Part shown: positions 32,969 to 37,270 of the stretch, piece by piece
How positions within the stretch are numbered: the stretch's first letter is position 1
Layout: the number at the start of each line of letters is the position of its first letter
Assembly (NCBI GenBank): GCA_030148775.1
Contig: JASBST010000029.1
Span: forward strand, 1 to 64,000
Direction: 5' to 3'
DNA from: Thiogranum sp.
GTDB taxonomy: Bacteria > Pseudomonadota > Gammaproteobacteria > DSM-19610
Length of the DNA: 64,000 nt
The notes under the pieces: model-generated
What the model saw: only the letters and a program-made list of their open reading frames with translations
Told to the model about the DNA's origin: nothing
Databases searched by the model: none
Position numbers and translations under genes: made by a program

Positions 32969-34348
32969 TTAGTTGTTGTTGATCAGGACTTCCACGCGGC
33001 GATTCGCCGCCCGCCCGTCGGGCGACTCGTTGCTTGCCACCGGCCGTTCCTCGCCATAGCCGGTGGCGATGATACGGCTCGCCGGCACGTTGCCCACCTC
33101 GACGAGGAAGCGTGCCACATTGTCGGCGCGTGCCTGTGACAACCGTTTGTTGCTGGCATCGGTGCCGGCGGAATCCGTGTGCCCGGAAATCTCAATGTAA
33201 CTCTGCGGAAAGGTCTGCACCGCCTGGATAATCCTGTTCATCAGGGCGAAATTGTCGGGGCCGATTTCGCTGCGCCCCGAGGGGAAACGGAAGCCGTGCG
33301 CCGAGATCAGGACGTTGCGCTGTTGCTGATAGACGCGCGCCTCGGCGGGGCTGAATAGCGACTGTACTTTATCGACAGCCGCGCGCTGTTCCGCCGTCAA
33401 CGACAACTCCTGTTCGTACTGCGAGCGTTGCGCCGCCGTGTCGTCGCGCTGCTGCTTGAGCTCGCGTATCGACTGCTGCAGACCCAATACCAGATCGCGA
33501 TTGGACTTGTTGACGGGTAGCTGCGTTGCCAACGGCGCGTTGATGGTACCGAGTTGTTCCTGATACCAGAGTATGGTGTCCTCACGGGTATAATCGCGAC
33601 GCTCGAAATCCTTGATCAGCTCGGTGATCGCCGCGCTTTTCTCGGCCAGGAAGCGGGCACGTCTGGCGTGGGCGTCGGCTTTCGCGGTGTGGGTTCGGTC
33701 GGCCTCCAGCACCGATTCAGCCAAGCGCATTTCCTCGGTCGCGAGCTTGAAGGTCTTGGGCGCGAATTTCATCGCATCGCGCTCGCGGGCCGCCGCTATG
33801 GCCGCCACGGCCGCCTCCACCGTGCCCTGTTTGAGCGCGGCGAGTTCCAGCCTCTCGTAACCGGCCAGCAACGCGGGCCGACGTTGCTTGGCGTCCTCAA
33901 GACGACCGCGTTCCACCAGATTGGCCAGTTTACGAAAGTCCTTTTCCAGCACCGCGCTCTGCGGCGCCAGAGAGGCTGCCGCACCGGCGGCGGCCGCCCT
34001 TTTGCGCACCTCGATCACTTCGCGAAGAATGTCGCGGCTGATCGCCGCGCGCTCATTGGCGTTGTTCAGTGTCTCGATGCCGGCGTTGGCGGCGCCATTG
34101 GCGCTGTTGGGACGACCGGCAGCGGCCGCTCCGACCGCCTCCGCATAGTGAGCCTGCGCACGGCTATAACCGGTGGGTGCCAGATCCGGAACGCCTTGCG
34201 CGGCGGCTTCCTGCAAGCGCTGGTCGAGCAGCGCGACGCGCTCGTAGCGTGTCAGAACCTCGTCTTCGGTCAGCTTGGGCGTACCGGCGCACCCGGCCAC
34301 GACGGCGATGACTACGAGCAAAAAGTGACTACGCAGAGCAGTTTTCAT
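32969..34348 (-). CDS. OmpA-family lipoprotein with DUF4398-like N-terminus
   Basis: A 459-residue envelope lipoprotein. The signal peptide ends in lipobox VVAGC (Cys20). An Ala/Arg/Glu-rich helical region follows, with TPR- or DUF4398-like character (about 30-330) and likely coiled coil around 290-345 (LQQSIRELKQQRDDTAAQ). The C-terminal OmpA peptidoglycan-binding domain (about 345-459) has SGHTDSAGTDASNKRLSQARADNV and GYGEERPVA. The ATG at 34348 gives the signal peptide directly; the longer frame adds 36 residues with no export signal. It likely links the outer membrane to peptidoglycan. Its specific role is unknown. Confidence 0.87.
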   Translation of the reverse strand: MKTALRSHFLLVVIAVVAGCAGTPKLTEDEVLTRYERVALLDQRLQEAAAQGVPDLAPTGYSRAQAHYAEAVGAAAAGRPNSANGAANAGIETLNNANERAAISRDILREVIEVRKRAAAAGAAASLAPQSAVLEKDFRKLANLVERGRLEDAKQRRPALLAGYERLELAALKQGTVEAAVAAIAAARERDAMKFAPKTFKLATEEMRLAESVLEADRTHTAKADAHARRARFLAEKSAAITELIKDFERRDYTREDTILWYQEQLGTINAPLATQLPVNKSNRDLVLGLQQSIRELKQQRDDTAAQRSQYEQELSLTAEQRAAVDKVQSLFSPAEARVYQQQRNVLISAHGFRFPSGRSEIGPDNFALMNRIIQAVQTFPQSYIEISGHTDSAGTDASNKRLSQARADNVARFLVEVGNVPASRIIATGYGEERPVASNESPDGRAANRRVEVLINNN

Positions 34349-34549
34349 GAGCGGAGGTTCTCCAGGTCCGTTTCGAGCACGGCGGGCGCTATCAATATAA
34401 CTCATGCGGGCTGCGAGCAGTACCTTTGCCCCGACGGCGCACCGTGCCGGCGCCAATTAAGTGCCGATCGGAGGAAAAATCTACTTTTTTGTCAACCTCC
34501 AGGACGTTCGCGCGTTAGGTGGGTATTGTGACCGCAAGAGGATTGAACG

Positions 34550-34957
34550 ATGAGAAATTTGCGCAAGGCTCTGTTTATTCTGACCCTGGGCGCCGGCGCG
34601 ACGCTCAGCGGCGGCGCCCAGGCTGGCGAGCGTTTCAGCCTGTACTATTCCACCGGCGCCTATTCGGGTCACGGATCCGGGTATCGGCACAGCTATGGTT
34701 TCGACCACCCGGAGCGGCATCGCCATGGGCGCCACCACCGCTATGGCTATCGCGAGCATCCGCATGCACGGCATCACCGCGACAGGCACCGCGAACACGG
34801 GTCACACCAGCGCAAAGCGCATCGCTGGTATCGACACGGAGGCCATCACCGCTGGCACGCCGAGCGACGCGCTCATCGCGACTACCGCTATCGGCATCAC
34901 AGTCGGGATCATCGGCGTACGCAGCCTCGCGCCTATGCCTACCGCGACCGGCATTAA
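34550..34957 (+). CDS. secreted His/Arg-rich protein
   Basis: A 135-residue exported protein that I cannot place in a named family. The signal peptide (1-25) ends SGGAQAG. The mature part is low-complexity, with 24 histidines in about 110 residues mixed with comparable numbers of arginine, plus Tyr and Asp (RHRHGRHHRYGYREHPHARHH type). That composition suggests divalent metal binding or polyanion binding in the periplasm. AAGAGG precedes the ATG by seven bases. It lies 55 bases before an ECF sigma factor gene on the same strand and may be part of that operon. Its reality is supported by the clear export signal and ribosome site. Confidence 0.7.
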   Translation: MRNLRKALFILTLGAGATLSGGAQAGERFSLYYSTGAYSGHGSGYRHSYGFDHPERHRHGRHHRYGYREHPHARHHRDRHREHGSHQRKAHRWYRHGGHHRWHAERRAHRDYRYRHHSRDHRRTQPRAYAYRDRH

Positions 34958-35012
34958 GCGTGTTTCGCTGCCGACTGGCCGCCCGGATTGGGACAGCGTA
35001 TTCTTGCCCCTG

Positions 35013-35621
35013 ATGGACGCCGAACCCACCGGCGACGGGCGCGTCGAAGCGGCGCTGTCACTGGACAATTTCCTGCGTACGGTACAGCACAAAGCGTATC
35101 AGATCGCTTATGGCGCGCTGTGGGACCGCGAGAGCGCGCTCGATGTGGTGCAGGAGAGTCTGCTGCGGTTTGTCGACTACTACCGGCACAAACCGGCTTC
35201 GGACTGGCCGGCCTTATTCCGCAGCGTCCTCAACAGCCGGATCAACGACCAGCGGCGCAAACGGCTGTTGGCGCGTGGCGGCCGACGACTGTTGTCGCTG
35301 ACCGGGTTGACGTTTGGCGCCCCGGCGGACGACGCCGACGAGGAAGCCGAGCTCCCGGCGTCGGTCGACGGACGCCCGGCGCGTAACCCGGAGCACGAAG
35401 CGGCGAACGGCGAACTGCAACGGCTCATCGAGCGTGCGGTGGGCAGCCTGCCGCAGCGTCAACGCCAGGTGTTCCTGTTGCGCGAACAGCTGGGCCTGAG
35501 CATTCAGGAGACGGCGGATACGCTTGGCTGTTCCGCCAACAGTATCAAGCAGCATCACTTTCGCGCCTTGCGGGCGCTGCGTGGTCAACTGGCAGAGGTA
35601 TGGCAGCATGAACGGCTTTGA
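35013..35621 (+). CDS. ECF-type RNA polymerase sigma factor
   Basis: A 202-residue extracytoplasmic-function sigma factor. Region 2 is at about 15-80 (LDNFLRTVQHKAYQIAYGAL, DVVQESLLRFVDYY, WPALFRSVLNSRINDQRR). An unusual acidic linker follows (DDADEEAELP), and region 4 is at about 135-195 (LPQRQRQVFLLREQLGLSIQ, ADTLGCSANSIKQHHFRALR). The ATG at 35013 is the first in frame with proper region 2 and no extra sequence; no strong ribosome site is visible. It overlaps the next gene, a zinc-finger-type anti-sigma candidate, by 14 bases. The sigma/anti-sigma/DUF3106 order resembles sets in betaproteobacteria. Its regulon is unknown. Confidence 0.88.
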   Translation: MDAEPTGDGRVEAALSLDNFLRTVQHKAYQIAYGALWDRESALDVVQESLLRFVDYYRHKPASDWPALFRSVLNSRINDQRRKRLLARGGRRLLSLTGLTFGAPADDADEEAELPASVDGRPARNPEHEAANGELQRLIERAVGSLPQRQRQVFLLREQLGLSIQETADTLGCSANSIKQHHFRALRALRGQLAEVWQHERL

Positions 35622-36030
35622 GCAACATCCGGACCCCGAAGTGTTGGATAAGTTGCGCGCGGGAATGTTCGACGACGATCCGCAGCAACGCCTGCATCTC
35701 GAACAACATCTGAGCCGGTGCCCGGCCTGTCGCGACGCCTACGACTGGCCCGACCGACTGGGGACCTGCGGCGGGGTCGCCGACGAGCAGCTGGACTGGC
35801 TGCGGCAACAGGCGCTGCGCGCACGGCGGCCGACGTCACGCCGCTGGCTGCCGGCGGCGGCCGCGGCGGCCTTGTTGTTGGCCGTATTCGGCTTGGCGAC
35901 GCTCGACCGCCGACCGGCACCGCCGCCACAGGTCGCCGCCGGCGAGGCGCAGGTGCCTGACCTCTACGAGGACCTGGACTTCTATTTGTGGTTGGCCGAC
36001 CATAAGGGCAAACCGGACTCCTCCACCTGA
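35608..36030 (+). CDS. putative membrane anti-sigma factor with zinc-finger-like motif
   Basis: A 140-residue protein probably controlling the ECF sigma factor encoded just upstream. The N-terminal domain has the His-x3-Cys-x2-Cys signature of zinc-binding anti-sigma domains (EQHLSRCPACRDAY, about residues 33-44). A single membrane segment lies at about 82-99 (PAAAAAALLLAVFGLATL), followed by a short acidic periplasmic tail with DLYEDLDFYLWLADHKG. This topology, soluble domain inside and sensor tail outside, is standard for ECF anti-sigma factors. ATG 35608 lies inside the sigma gene, so the pair is coupled. No homologue name is certain; it occupies the place of DUF3619 in related loci. Confidence 0.75.
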   Translation: MNGFEQHPDPEVLDKLRAGMFDDDPQQRLHLEQHLSRCPACRDAYDWPDRLGTCGGVADEQLDWLRQQALRARRPTSRRWLPAAAAAALLLAVFGLATLDRRPAPPPQVAAGEAQVPDLYEDLDFYLWLADHKGKPDSST

Positions 36031-36037
36031 CGCCCGT

Positions 36038-36379
36038 ATGAAGATTAAACGACTGATCCTCCTACCGCTGCTTGTCTGCCTGCAGGTCCCCGGCGCGCTG
36101 GCGGAGCCGGGAACCGGCCGAATCGATCTCGCCCAGCGCGGTCAGATCCCCTGGCAATCGCTGTCGGCCGAGGAACAGGCGGCGCTCAAGCGTTATCGCA
36201 ACCGCTGGGACCGCTACAGCGGCGATCGCCAGAGCGAACTGCGCCAGGGCGCGCGGCGCTATCTGCAGCTGCCACAGCAAAAACGACGTGAAGTTGAACA
36301 GCAGCGTCGACAGTATCGTGACATGTCGCCGGAACAGCGGCGGCGCCTGCGCGAGGAATACCAACGCGAACGCCACTGA
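36038..36379 (+). CDS. DUF3106 family periplasmic protein
   Basis: A 113-residue secreted protein of the DUF3106 type. A signal peptide (1-22, ending GALAEP) precedes a strongly charged helical body rich in Arg, Gln and Glu, with IPWQSLSAEEQAAL and DMSPEQRRRLREEY, the repeating W-x-x-L-(S/T)-P-x-x-(Q/R) pattern of the family. It follows the anti-sigma gene by seven bases and is probably the last gene of the sigma operon. Similar small charged proteins accompany ECF sigma factors elsewhere; a periplasmic sensing or chaperone role akin to CpxP/RseB is speculation. Confidence 0.8.
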   Translation: MKIKRLILLPLLVCLQVPGALAEPGTGRIDLAQRGQIPWQSLSAEEQAALKRYRNRWDRYSGDRQSELRQGARRYLQLPQQKRREVEQQRRQYRDMSPEQRRRLREEYQRERH

Positions 36380-36466
36380 GCGTGCCATTGCGTCAGTCGA
36401 CGTCCTATTCACAGGTCGGTTGCCAGTCGGTACAATGGCCGGCTCTGAGCGAAAGATATCACCCCT

Positions 36467-37270
36467 ATGCACCCTATGCTGAACATCGCGGTGCGCGCAG
36501 CGCGTAACGCCGGAGAAATCATTGTCCGCCATTCCAACCGCATCGACGAACTGACGGTTGCAAGCAAGGACCGCAATGATTTCGTCTCCGAGGTGGACCG
36601 ACAGGCTGAAGACGAAATCATCGCCGTCATCCGCAAAGCCTACCCCGATCACGCCATTCTCGCCGAAGAGAGCGGCCAGCGTCACGGAAAGGACGGGGAC
36701 TTTCTGTGGATTATCGATCCGCTCGACGGCACCACCAATTTCCTGCATGGCATGCCCCAGTTCGCCGTCTCGATCGCCTTGCAACACAAAGGGCGTCTCG
36801 AGCAGGGGGTGATCTACGACCCGATGCGCCAGGAGCTGTTCACGGCCAGTCGCGGCAGCGGAGCCTTTCTCGACAATCGCCGTATCCGGGTCAGCAAGCA
36901 GGTCGGTCTGAACGGCGCGCTGTTGGGCACGGGCTTTCCTTACAAAGACCAGGCGCATCTTGAGACTTATTTGGCAATGTTCAAGGCGCTGATTGTCGAT
37001 AGCGCCGGCATACGCCGGCCTGGTTCGGCCGCGCTCGATCTGGCCTACGTCGCCGCCGGGCGCTTCGATGGATTCTGGGAGATCGGGCTCAAGCCTTGGG
37101 ACATGGCCGCCGGGATACTGCTGGTGCGGGAAGCCGGTGGCCTGGTCGGCGATTTCGCCGGCGGTCACGACTACCTGACAACCGGCAACGTCGTCGCCGC
37201 GGCACCCAAATTGTTCCCCGCCATGTTGCGCGAAATCCGCCCCCACCTGACACCCGCCCTGTCGTCCTAA
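36467..37270 (+). CDS. suhB: inositol-1-monophosphatase family protein SuhB
   Basis: A 267-residue Mg2+-dependent phosphatase that acts on inositol-1-phosphate. In E. coli SuhB also joins the rRNA antitermination complex through NusA and RNA polymerase. The metal-binding motifs are intact: EESG (Glu in LAEESGQRHG), the WIIDPLDGTTNFLHG signature, and WDMAAGILLVREAGG. The start is ATG 36467; a second Met three codons later (MHPMLN) is equally conventional. The gene is read toward the small Cys-motif protein and convergent with the secF operon. Neighbourhood with queA-tgt-sec genes is common in gammaproteobacteria. Confidence 0.96.
   Translation: MHPMLNIAVRAARNAGEIIVRHSNRIDELTVASKDRNDFVSEVDRQAEDEIIAVIRKAYPDHAILAEESGQRHGKDGDFLWIIDPLDGTTNFLHGMPQFAVSIALQHKGRLEQGVIYDPMRQELFTASRGSGAFLDNRRIRVSKQVGLNGALLGTGFPYKDQAHLETYLAMFKALIVDSAGIRRPGSAALDLAYVAAGRFDGFWEIGLKPWDMAAGILLVREAGGLVGDFAGGHDYLTTGNVVAAAPKLFPAMLREIRPHLTPALSS

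Follow-up and report, generated by a model that had tools for sequence, protein, structure and literature searches.

A conserved ECF sigma factor locus of Thiogranum sp. headed by a His/Arg-rich, probably exported protein suggests a self-contained autoregulated circuit

Introduction

RpoE-RseA-RseB and CpxP/Spy are envelope-stress systems, whose small, charged, helical periplasmic proteins resemble those encoded at the locus described here. A further likeness is the inner-membrane anti-sigma factor with an outer part, as described for RseA in the portion of PMC8103513 that concerns it. In contrast to RpoE-RseA-RseB, no RseB-like gene is found among the genes of the unit and the scanned neighbours, and, unlike for the RpoE and Cpx systems, no target was detected beyond the unit's own operon in the genus. 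The CnrYXH system of Cupriavidus metallidurans likewise combines a membrane anti-sigma factor, an ECF sigma factor and a periplasmic helical protein, but CnrX is a Co/Ni binder and the system controls an RND efflux pump (both according to the CnrYXH passages of PMC7689651), and CnrY is a class II anti-sigma factor; no efflux pump is present among the neighbouring genes scanned around the unit. CorE-type metal-responsive ECF sigma factors share the proposed response to metal, but are grouped with ECFs that possess a C-terminal extension (PMC8103513, in its part on CorE), whereas the sigma factor considered here has a separate anti-sigma factor. ECF circuits that regulate themselves are well known (PMC3817407).

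Homologous sigma factors with the same type of site occur in loci composed of a PRK09047-like ECF sigma factor, a DUF3619-like anti-sigma factor and a DUF3106 protein, which are found in Gamma-, Beta- and some deltaproteobacteria. Compared to those loci, the clade studied here has a His-rich first gene, an anti-sigma factor with an HX3CX2C motif and a DLDFYLWL tail, and a short DUF3106 protein. We found no experimental work on the sigma/DUF3619-like/DUF3106 group among 5.39 million open-licence papers, in whose main texts the word DUF3106 does not occur and PRK09047 together with sigma factor yields no paper. The combination of a His-rich protein, an ECF sigma factor, an anti-sigma factor and a periplasmic protein leads to a single genome paper there, five papers that mention TGTCAACC together with a sigma factor bear unrelated titles, and nothing else listed deals with this system by title and abstract start. 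What we regard as new is the pairing with a His-rich, probably exported effector, and the apparent exchange of charged effectors under one controller in relatives.

Results

The DNA analysed here, referred to as the window, is a stretch of 64,000 nt from Thiogranum sp. (GCA_030148775.1, contig JASBST010000029.1). The features of the four-gene unit are collected in Table 1. As the original prediction had it, a sigma factor gene (PF08281, TIGR02937) is followed by an anti-sigma gene and a DUF3106 gene (PF11304). Hereby, the sigma and anti-sigma genes overlap by 14 nt, and 7 nt separate the anti-sigma gene from the DUF3106 gene. The open frame of the sigma factor, with its ATG at 35013, continues upstream (34695-35012); judging from the codon-position pattern of the overlapping His-rich frame, this extension is not a gene there.

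Table 1. Coordinates of the unit, its putative promoter and an adjacent gene in the window
Feature	Position	Strand	Remarks
Probable promoter of the unit's ECF sigma factor, TGTCAACC-N15-CGTTA	34490..34517	+	Conserved site
His/Arg-rich small protein, probably exported	34550..34957	+	Gene 1 of the unit, 135 aa
ECF sigma factor, 202 aa	35013..35621	+	PF08281, TIGR02937
Membrane anti-sigma factor	35608..36030	+	HX3CX2C, one hydrophobic helix, short outer tail with YEDLDFYLWLADH
DUF3106 protein, probably periplasmic, helical	36038..36379	+	PF11304 (45 bits); candidate sensor/co-regulator
OmpA-domain protein, between psd and the unit	32969-34456	-	Domain match

Within the scanned region 34400-36500, no sigma-70 consensus promoter lies ahead of the operon, and the lone sigma-70-like site (36408-36436) precedes the inositol monophosphatase gene. 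One terminator-like site was found inside the unit, at 35859 within the anti-sigma gene. An internal promoter or terminator was rejected, as the terminator-like count is below the shuffle mean of 1.3 and the sigma-70-like site lies outside the unit. The flanking genes are here called psd and suhB on the basis of Pfam matches (phosphatidylserine decarboxylase and inositol monophosphatase). In relatives such as G003 and G008 some 70 to 110 nt separate the end of psd from the conserved site, and the gap in G005 resembles that of the window; given the closeness of psd to the site in such relatives, the OmpA-domain gene is probably a local insertion.

The first gene of the unit encodes a protein with 24 His, 28 Arg, 12 Tyr and no Cys, the 28 Arg and 2 Lys standing against 10 acidic residues (Asp plus Glu). 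It had been predicted as a signal-peptide protein with 24 histidines in about 110 residues, and indeed all 24 follow residue 25, i.e. lie within the final 110 residues. Secretion was called from visual inspection of the N-terminus (a basic start, then a hydrophobic stretch and AQA-G) and a hydrophobicity count. With 17.8% His, the protein ranks first among all 203 window ORFs (six frames, at least 100 aa; runner-up 10.7%), and when the window is scanned by 110-aa stretches the top value is 23 His, with 17 in the second-best independent stretch of any frame. Taking the 2.75% His of five neighbouring genes as expectation, 24 His in 110 residues correspond to a binomial P of about 4e-15. Neither Pfam nor NCBIfam yields a match to the protein at E values up to 1. 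Between close relatives, the differences in the gene at codon positions 1/2/3 amount to 25/25/54 (L001-L005, the nearest pair) and 18/16/39 (L011-L013); this third-position excess indicates that the His-rich frame is translated. While the sigma factor is conserved among the orthologous loci, the sequence of the His-rich protein is poorly so, and in the 12 loci it contains 11 to 25 His, corresponding to 10 to 24% of the part beyond residue 25. The ends of these proteins are alike, with a YSTG-like stretch past the signal region in some and an aromatic residue or His as last residue in 10 of the 12, which could be relevant to folding, sorting or protease recognition.

The second gene encodes an ECF sigma factor with regions 2 and 4, matching PF08281 (E 1.7e-16, 60 bits; cut-off 25.7), PF07638 (29.8; cut-off 21.1) and TIGR02937 (75.5; cut-off 42.9), the region-2 model PF04542 alone scoring under its cut-off (14.4; 24). 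Its best NCBIfam relative is NF006550/PRK09047, to which the protein is not assigned at 149 bits and a cut-off of 173.

Of the zinc-finger type that had been predicted for the anti-sigma factor, the motif part stands: HX3CX2C is present as HLSRCPAC. The zf-HC2 model scores below its cut-off (14.9; 22.2), as does NF052375 (28.9; 100). HX3CX2C recurs in all 12 window-clade loci with a tail-pattern anti-sigma factor (L071, L072 and 10 of type A) and, by reading, in L010; beyond the window clade, L016 from another family has it, and 21 of the 24 aligned anti-sigma factors are without this part. In membrane anti-sigma factors the motif may be structural (PMC7406223, in its passage on the motif). 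The anti-sigma factor of L022 scores just under the DUF3619 cut-off (21.2; 22.2). An AlphaFold2 model of the window protein (mean pLDDT 73, pTM 0.33) predicts helices at 82-99 and 119-133, among others, with the outer tail modelled as a helix. No PDB match was obtained by sequence (best E 0.26) or with this model of middling confidence. The YEDLDFYLWL-like outer tail was caught by the chosen pattern in 38 of 91 loci, the hit in L089 being a different small ORF; its invariance in alignment A3 arises partly by construction, since only motif-bearing loci were taken into that alignment.

The fourth gene product matches PF11304 above the cut-off of 24.3 and is thus a DUF3106 protein. Its model (mean pLDDT 83) is mostly helical from residue 44, and no PDB match, to a CnrX-like fold or any other, was found by sequence profile (best E 0.075) or by fold (Foldseek). 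The only Cys of the protein lies in the presumed signal peptide and its only His at the very C-terminus, which leaves few likely metal ligands.

To follow the unit beyond the window, the sigma factor was searched across 114 genomes. Within the genus, 11 of 17 genomes carry a close orthologue (59% identity or more); among three genomes from other genera of the family, one does (G017). Each of the 12 orthologous loci has a short, secreted-looking His-rich ORF as the gene preceding the sigma factor, and a single contig shows the order psd, sigma, suhB in 9 of the 11 genus genomes, sometimes with extra genes between. This co-occurrence supports the proposal that the genes form one set, and the lack of co-occurrence that had been named as part of its refutation does not apply. 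The remaining six genus genomes have neither a close sigma factor nor the exact site. One of them is informative as an empty place: in G014 (about 75% complete, locus intact on one contig) psd and suhB are 103 nt apart, which implies absence of the whole cassette. The other five are uninformative, with psd and suhB 10 kb apart on one contig (G010), far apart (G004) or on separate contigs (G007, G015, G016). This conservation argues that the four genes form one unit in which the His-rich gene is no chance neighbour. Plasmid carriage of the sigma factor was rejected, as the 10 plasmid records were all below 60% identity.

Ahead of the His-rich gene, with its 3' end 32 nt before the start codon, lies the site TGTYAACC-N15-CGTTA, which in sequence has the shape of an ECF-type -35/-10 pair. 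The pattern [TCG]GTYAAC[CT]-N15-CGTTA fits 11 of the 12 orthologous loci, L008 deviating. The exact site occurs once in the window's own genome, at the position given in Table 1, and the 17 genus genomes contain eight exact matches to the pattern with T or G as first base, each before the His-rich gene, compared to four matches of the reversed-pattern control in the same genomes; as eight is just twice this control, the position of the sites rather than their number carries the argument. With up to two mismatches, 36 sites are found in the own genome and 79 for the reversed control. No further targets can therefore be claimed there, and a larger regulon was rejected for lack of an excess over the control. 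Given the single exact match and no mismatch excess, the own operon appears to be the sole clear target of the sigma factor in the genus. We infer that the site is the promoter of this sigma factor; a conserved ECF-type site ahead of the sigma factor's own operon points to an autoregulated ECF system. Where the original prediction had left open whether the His-rich protein is buffer or target, target appears the better word in view of the 12/12 co-occurrence and the conserved ECF-type site, and we are highly confident that the gene belongs to the unit and stands under the unit's own sigma site.

The same site was then scanned across the class, where TGTCAACC-N15-CGTTA has 43 matches in 274 genomes and the built-in reversed control 24; a separate reversed-pattern control scan covered 252 genomes. 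The analysis took in 42 distinct real matches of 43, the window's own included, and 22 distinct control matches of 23, with flanks of up to 1.5 kb except for 14 real-set stretches that were somewhat different. A sigma factor of this family follows within 1300 nt at 15 of the 42 sites, and 16 were flagged before a short secreted charged ORF, 15 of them real, as the flag at L164 concerns a wrong-frame ORF. In all, a sigma factor of this family, a secreted charged gene or both follow 23 of the 42 class sites, compared to none of the 22 reversed-pattern sites; the total stands because the L164 site also precedes a sigma factor. The other 19 sites, which precede neither, may be due to chance. His-rich ORFs follow the site in L152 (two), L175 and the window, and ORFs with Arg/Asp 11-residue repeats in L151, L158, L159, L166, L167, L171 and L176. 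Further ORFs at the site are EF-hand-like with charged repeats (L182; EF-hand models below cut-off), weakly LTXXQ/Spy-like (L157; 19.0 bits, cut-off 24.3), an MSPEDRR-repeat protein (L179) and a Cys- and His-containing protein (L189). Since no sigma factor lies within 1300 nt of the sites in L157, L158, L159, L176, L179 and L189, these may be separate targets. In L177, from another family, the site is followed by a small His-rich lipoprotein-like ORF that falls outside the formal secreted-charged filter.

A scan of named genomes was evaluated for the best 80 of at least 576 confirmed loci, and the counts in this and the next paragraph refer to these best 80. Besides Gamma- and Betaproteobacteria, they represent a few genera of deltaproteobacteria (Geobacter, Trichlorobacter, Desulfuromusa). 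In 76 of the 80, the sigma factor is followed by a DUF3106-like ORF (home-made profile, E 0.01), and 35 of these 76, checked together with that of the window, all match PF11304 at E 0.1 or better. Among these 36 members there are weak matches to Metal_resist (PF13801; 4/36) and LTXXQ (2/36), which sit among many unrelated weak ones (62 families). Strict sites number 25 in the 1500 nt before the sigma factor (24 of 80 loci, 115 kb), with three more on the same strand and one on the other strand elsewhere (631 kb in all).

The first gene varies among the best 80 relatives and the class sites, being His-rich, of the Arg/Asp 11-residue repeat type, EF-hand-like or not found. First genes with at least 11% His occur in 8 of 80 loci (L071, L073, L076, L079, L083, L091, L100 with two, and L123) and Arg/Asp repeat genes in four (L094, L097, L098, L113). 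No first gene with at least 11% His was found by the composition filter in 72 of 80, a filter that may miss genes and that met little upstream sequence in a few loci (almost none in L072 and L143); the sigma core thus probably works without a His-rich gene. Moreover, 18 of 80 loci have 55 to 170 nt, and no gene, between the site and the matched start of the sigma factor, which suggests that the controller can stand without a first gene. Under a strict filter, secreted His-rich ORFs on the sigma strand lie solely within 1.2 kb before the sigma factor (5/5), one short other-strand ORF (L138) also passing; of four Arg/Asp-type ORFs, the one in L123, which lies downstream of the sigma factor, is identical with the DUF3106-like protein. 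In a tree of 106 sigma rows, parsimony requires seven changes of the His label, at least three of them forced by starred branches; the seven may be one or two too many, as L072 was labelled other on scant upstream sequence and L086 His at 6% His. The pairing of His-rich gene and sigma factor was thus apparently made or lost more than once, and we take this recurrence as the strongest sign that the His-rich chemistry is functional and not accidentally inherited. No metal transporter was seen by eye among the recurring neighbours of the best 80, and a metal-gene neighbourhood was rejected, since these neighbours look housekeeping by eye.

Discussion

On balance, we lean towards a self-contained autoregulated ECF circuit with an exported His/Arg-rich effector as sink, most plausibly for metal. 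The sequence comparisons provide the genes, their conservation as a unit and the conserved site with its specificity. In such a circuit the HX3CX2C anti-sigma factor would keep the sigma factor at the inner membrane. The short outer tail of the anti-sigma factor, with its YEDLDFYLWL helix, would be the input surface for the signal, and its partner in the periplasm would probably be the DUF3106 protein. Owing to its near-constant presence in the loci, the latter is the best candidate for this part. The freed sigma factor would read TGTYAACC-N15-CGTTA, in the genus seemingly at its own operon only, and since the site seems restricted in this way, the exported His/Arg-rich protein would be the first and main product, with the extra sigma factor, anti-sigma factor and DUF3106 protein serving feedback. 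This effector, a charged polymer that is probably unfolded, would bind up a stressor in the periplasm, for which transition-metal ions captured by the histidines are the most plausible candidate. That the His-rich protein is output and not sensor we consider likely, and that this output acts as sink or protectant reasonably probable; a transition metal as stressor is a tentative proposal, the identity of the stressor being the least certain part. Against a metal sink, the same site elsewhere heads Arg/Asp-repeat, EF-hand-like and Spy-like genes, which fit general envelope protection as well as metal binding, and the window protein contains more Arg (28) than His (24).

An envelope-stress circuit without metal would instead sense outer-membrane or lipopolysaccharide damage, and the His/Arg-rich polycation would coat or cross-link anionic envelope polymers, histidine being merely one way to build a charged low-complexity polymer. 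Relatives that carry Arg/Asp 11-residue repeats instead, one of them weakly apolipoprotein-like (33.5 bits; cut-off 90), Spy-like LTXXQ or MSPEDRR genes at the site, and the housekeeping-like recurring neighbours of the best 80 of at least 576 relatives are consistent with this reading, but it leaves unexplained why His-rich first genes recur on separate branches and why a small His-rich lipoprotein-like ORF follows the site of L177 in another family. Because other lineages have this site ahead of Arg/Asp-repeat or Spy-like genes, we hold a polycation acting on the envelope to be nearly as likely as metal, though rather unlikely in itself.

The sensing step invites comparison with CnrYXH, in that DUF3106 could be a periplasmic metal sensor whose binding of metal frees the sigma factor. 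The shared outline of sigma factor, membrane anti-sigma factor and periplasmic helical protein encoded together and the weak Metal_resist and LTXXQ matches among DUF3106 members would suit such a sensor, but those matches sit among many unrelated weak ones, the DUF3106 protein lacks a PDB match by profile and fold and has few likely metal ligands, and CnrY is of class II (PMC7406223, where it classifies CnrY), whereas the anti-sigma factor of the window carries HX3CX2C; we regard a metal-sensing DUF3106 protein as improbable. Still less probable is a role of the His-rich protein as sensor or signal, in which it would bind metal or a ligand and then act on the anti-sigma tail. It is probably exported, encoded beside the anti-sigma factor and strictly linked in the genus, but the filter finds no such first gene in 72 of the best 80 of at least 576 loci, while 76 of the 80 keep sigma factor and DUF3106, and its sequence is poorly conserved compared to the sigma factor; as the core can probably work without it, a sensor role is disfavoured. 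A low-complexity passenger that merely lies upstream would fit the fast-changing sequence and the missing family match, but it is very hard to reconcile with the 12/12 linkage, the conserved site and the third-position excess, and we give it hardly any weight. The preferred reading thus remains the autoregulated circuit with the His/Arg-rich protein as effector.

Beyond the genus, loci with sigma factor and DUF3106 occur in many Gamma- and Betaproteobacteria (among the best 80 of at least 576 named loci). It is conceivable, at slightly less than even chances, that a widespread ECF core is a plug-in controller of exported, low-complexity, highly charged polymers whose chemistry is exchanged between lineages. 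The core would consist of the sigma factor, TGTYAACC-N15-CGTTA, the anti-sigma factor (with a YEDLDFYxWL-type outer tail in many lineages) and DUF3106, and the exchanged polymers would be His/Arg-rich, Arg/Asp 11-residue repeat, EF-hand-like with charged repeats, or Spy-like. If so, one signal would be answered by different protective materials, and easily overlooked low-complexity exported proteins would be tied to a defined stress switch. With its compactness, one apparent target site and simple effector chemistry, the unit would be a good place to learn the signal of the group.

Several observations on relatives may be added. A second, more distant sigma factor of the same kind (34-38% identity) is found in several genomes of the window's family (L020, L030, L033 and more matches in G001, G009, G011, G012, G013 and G017), and in L020, L030 and L033 it comes after an Arg/Asp 11-residue repeat gene; at this identity level there is no match in the window's own, incomplete genome. 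L022, L028 and similar distant loci encode an additional short protein between anti-sigma factor and DUF3106. It looks secreted, has an ELLEFLGxFExxDGxWLDP-like motif and is absent from the window's unit; the one example tested has no Pfam match. The first genes of L073, L083, L086 and L123 encode His-containing secreted proteins with a common hydrophobic C-terminal end (like LIAIIGGAVLVHEIL), which differs from the His-rich protein of the window; they are perhaps a second His-rich family under the same sigma factor. The upstream gene of L150, which lies under the site, encodes a secreted-looking protein of 280 aa with DUF3106-like MSPEER repeats and EF-hand-like DTDGDG stretches, possibly a fusion of partner and effector. 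Finally, in L100/L019 (G057) two different His-rich secreted genes stand in tandem no more than about 1.3 kb ahead of one sigma factor. Each is preceded by a site of its own, so that the effector is naturally doubled.
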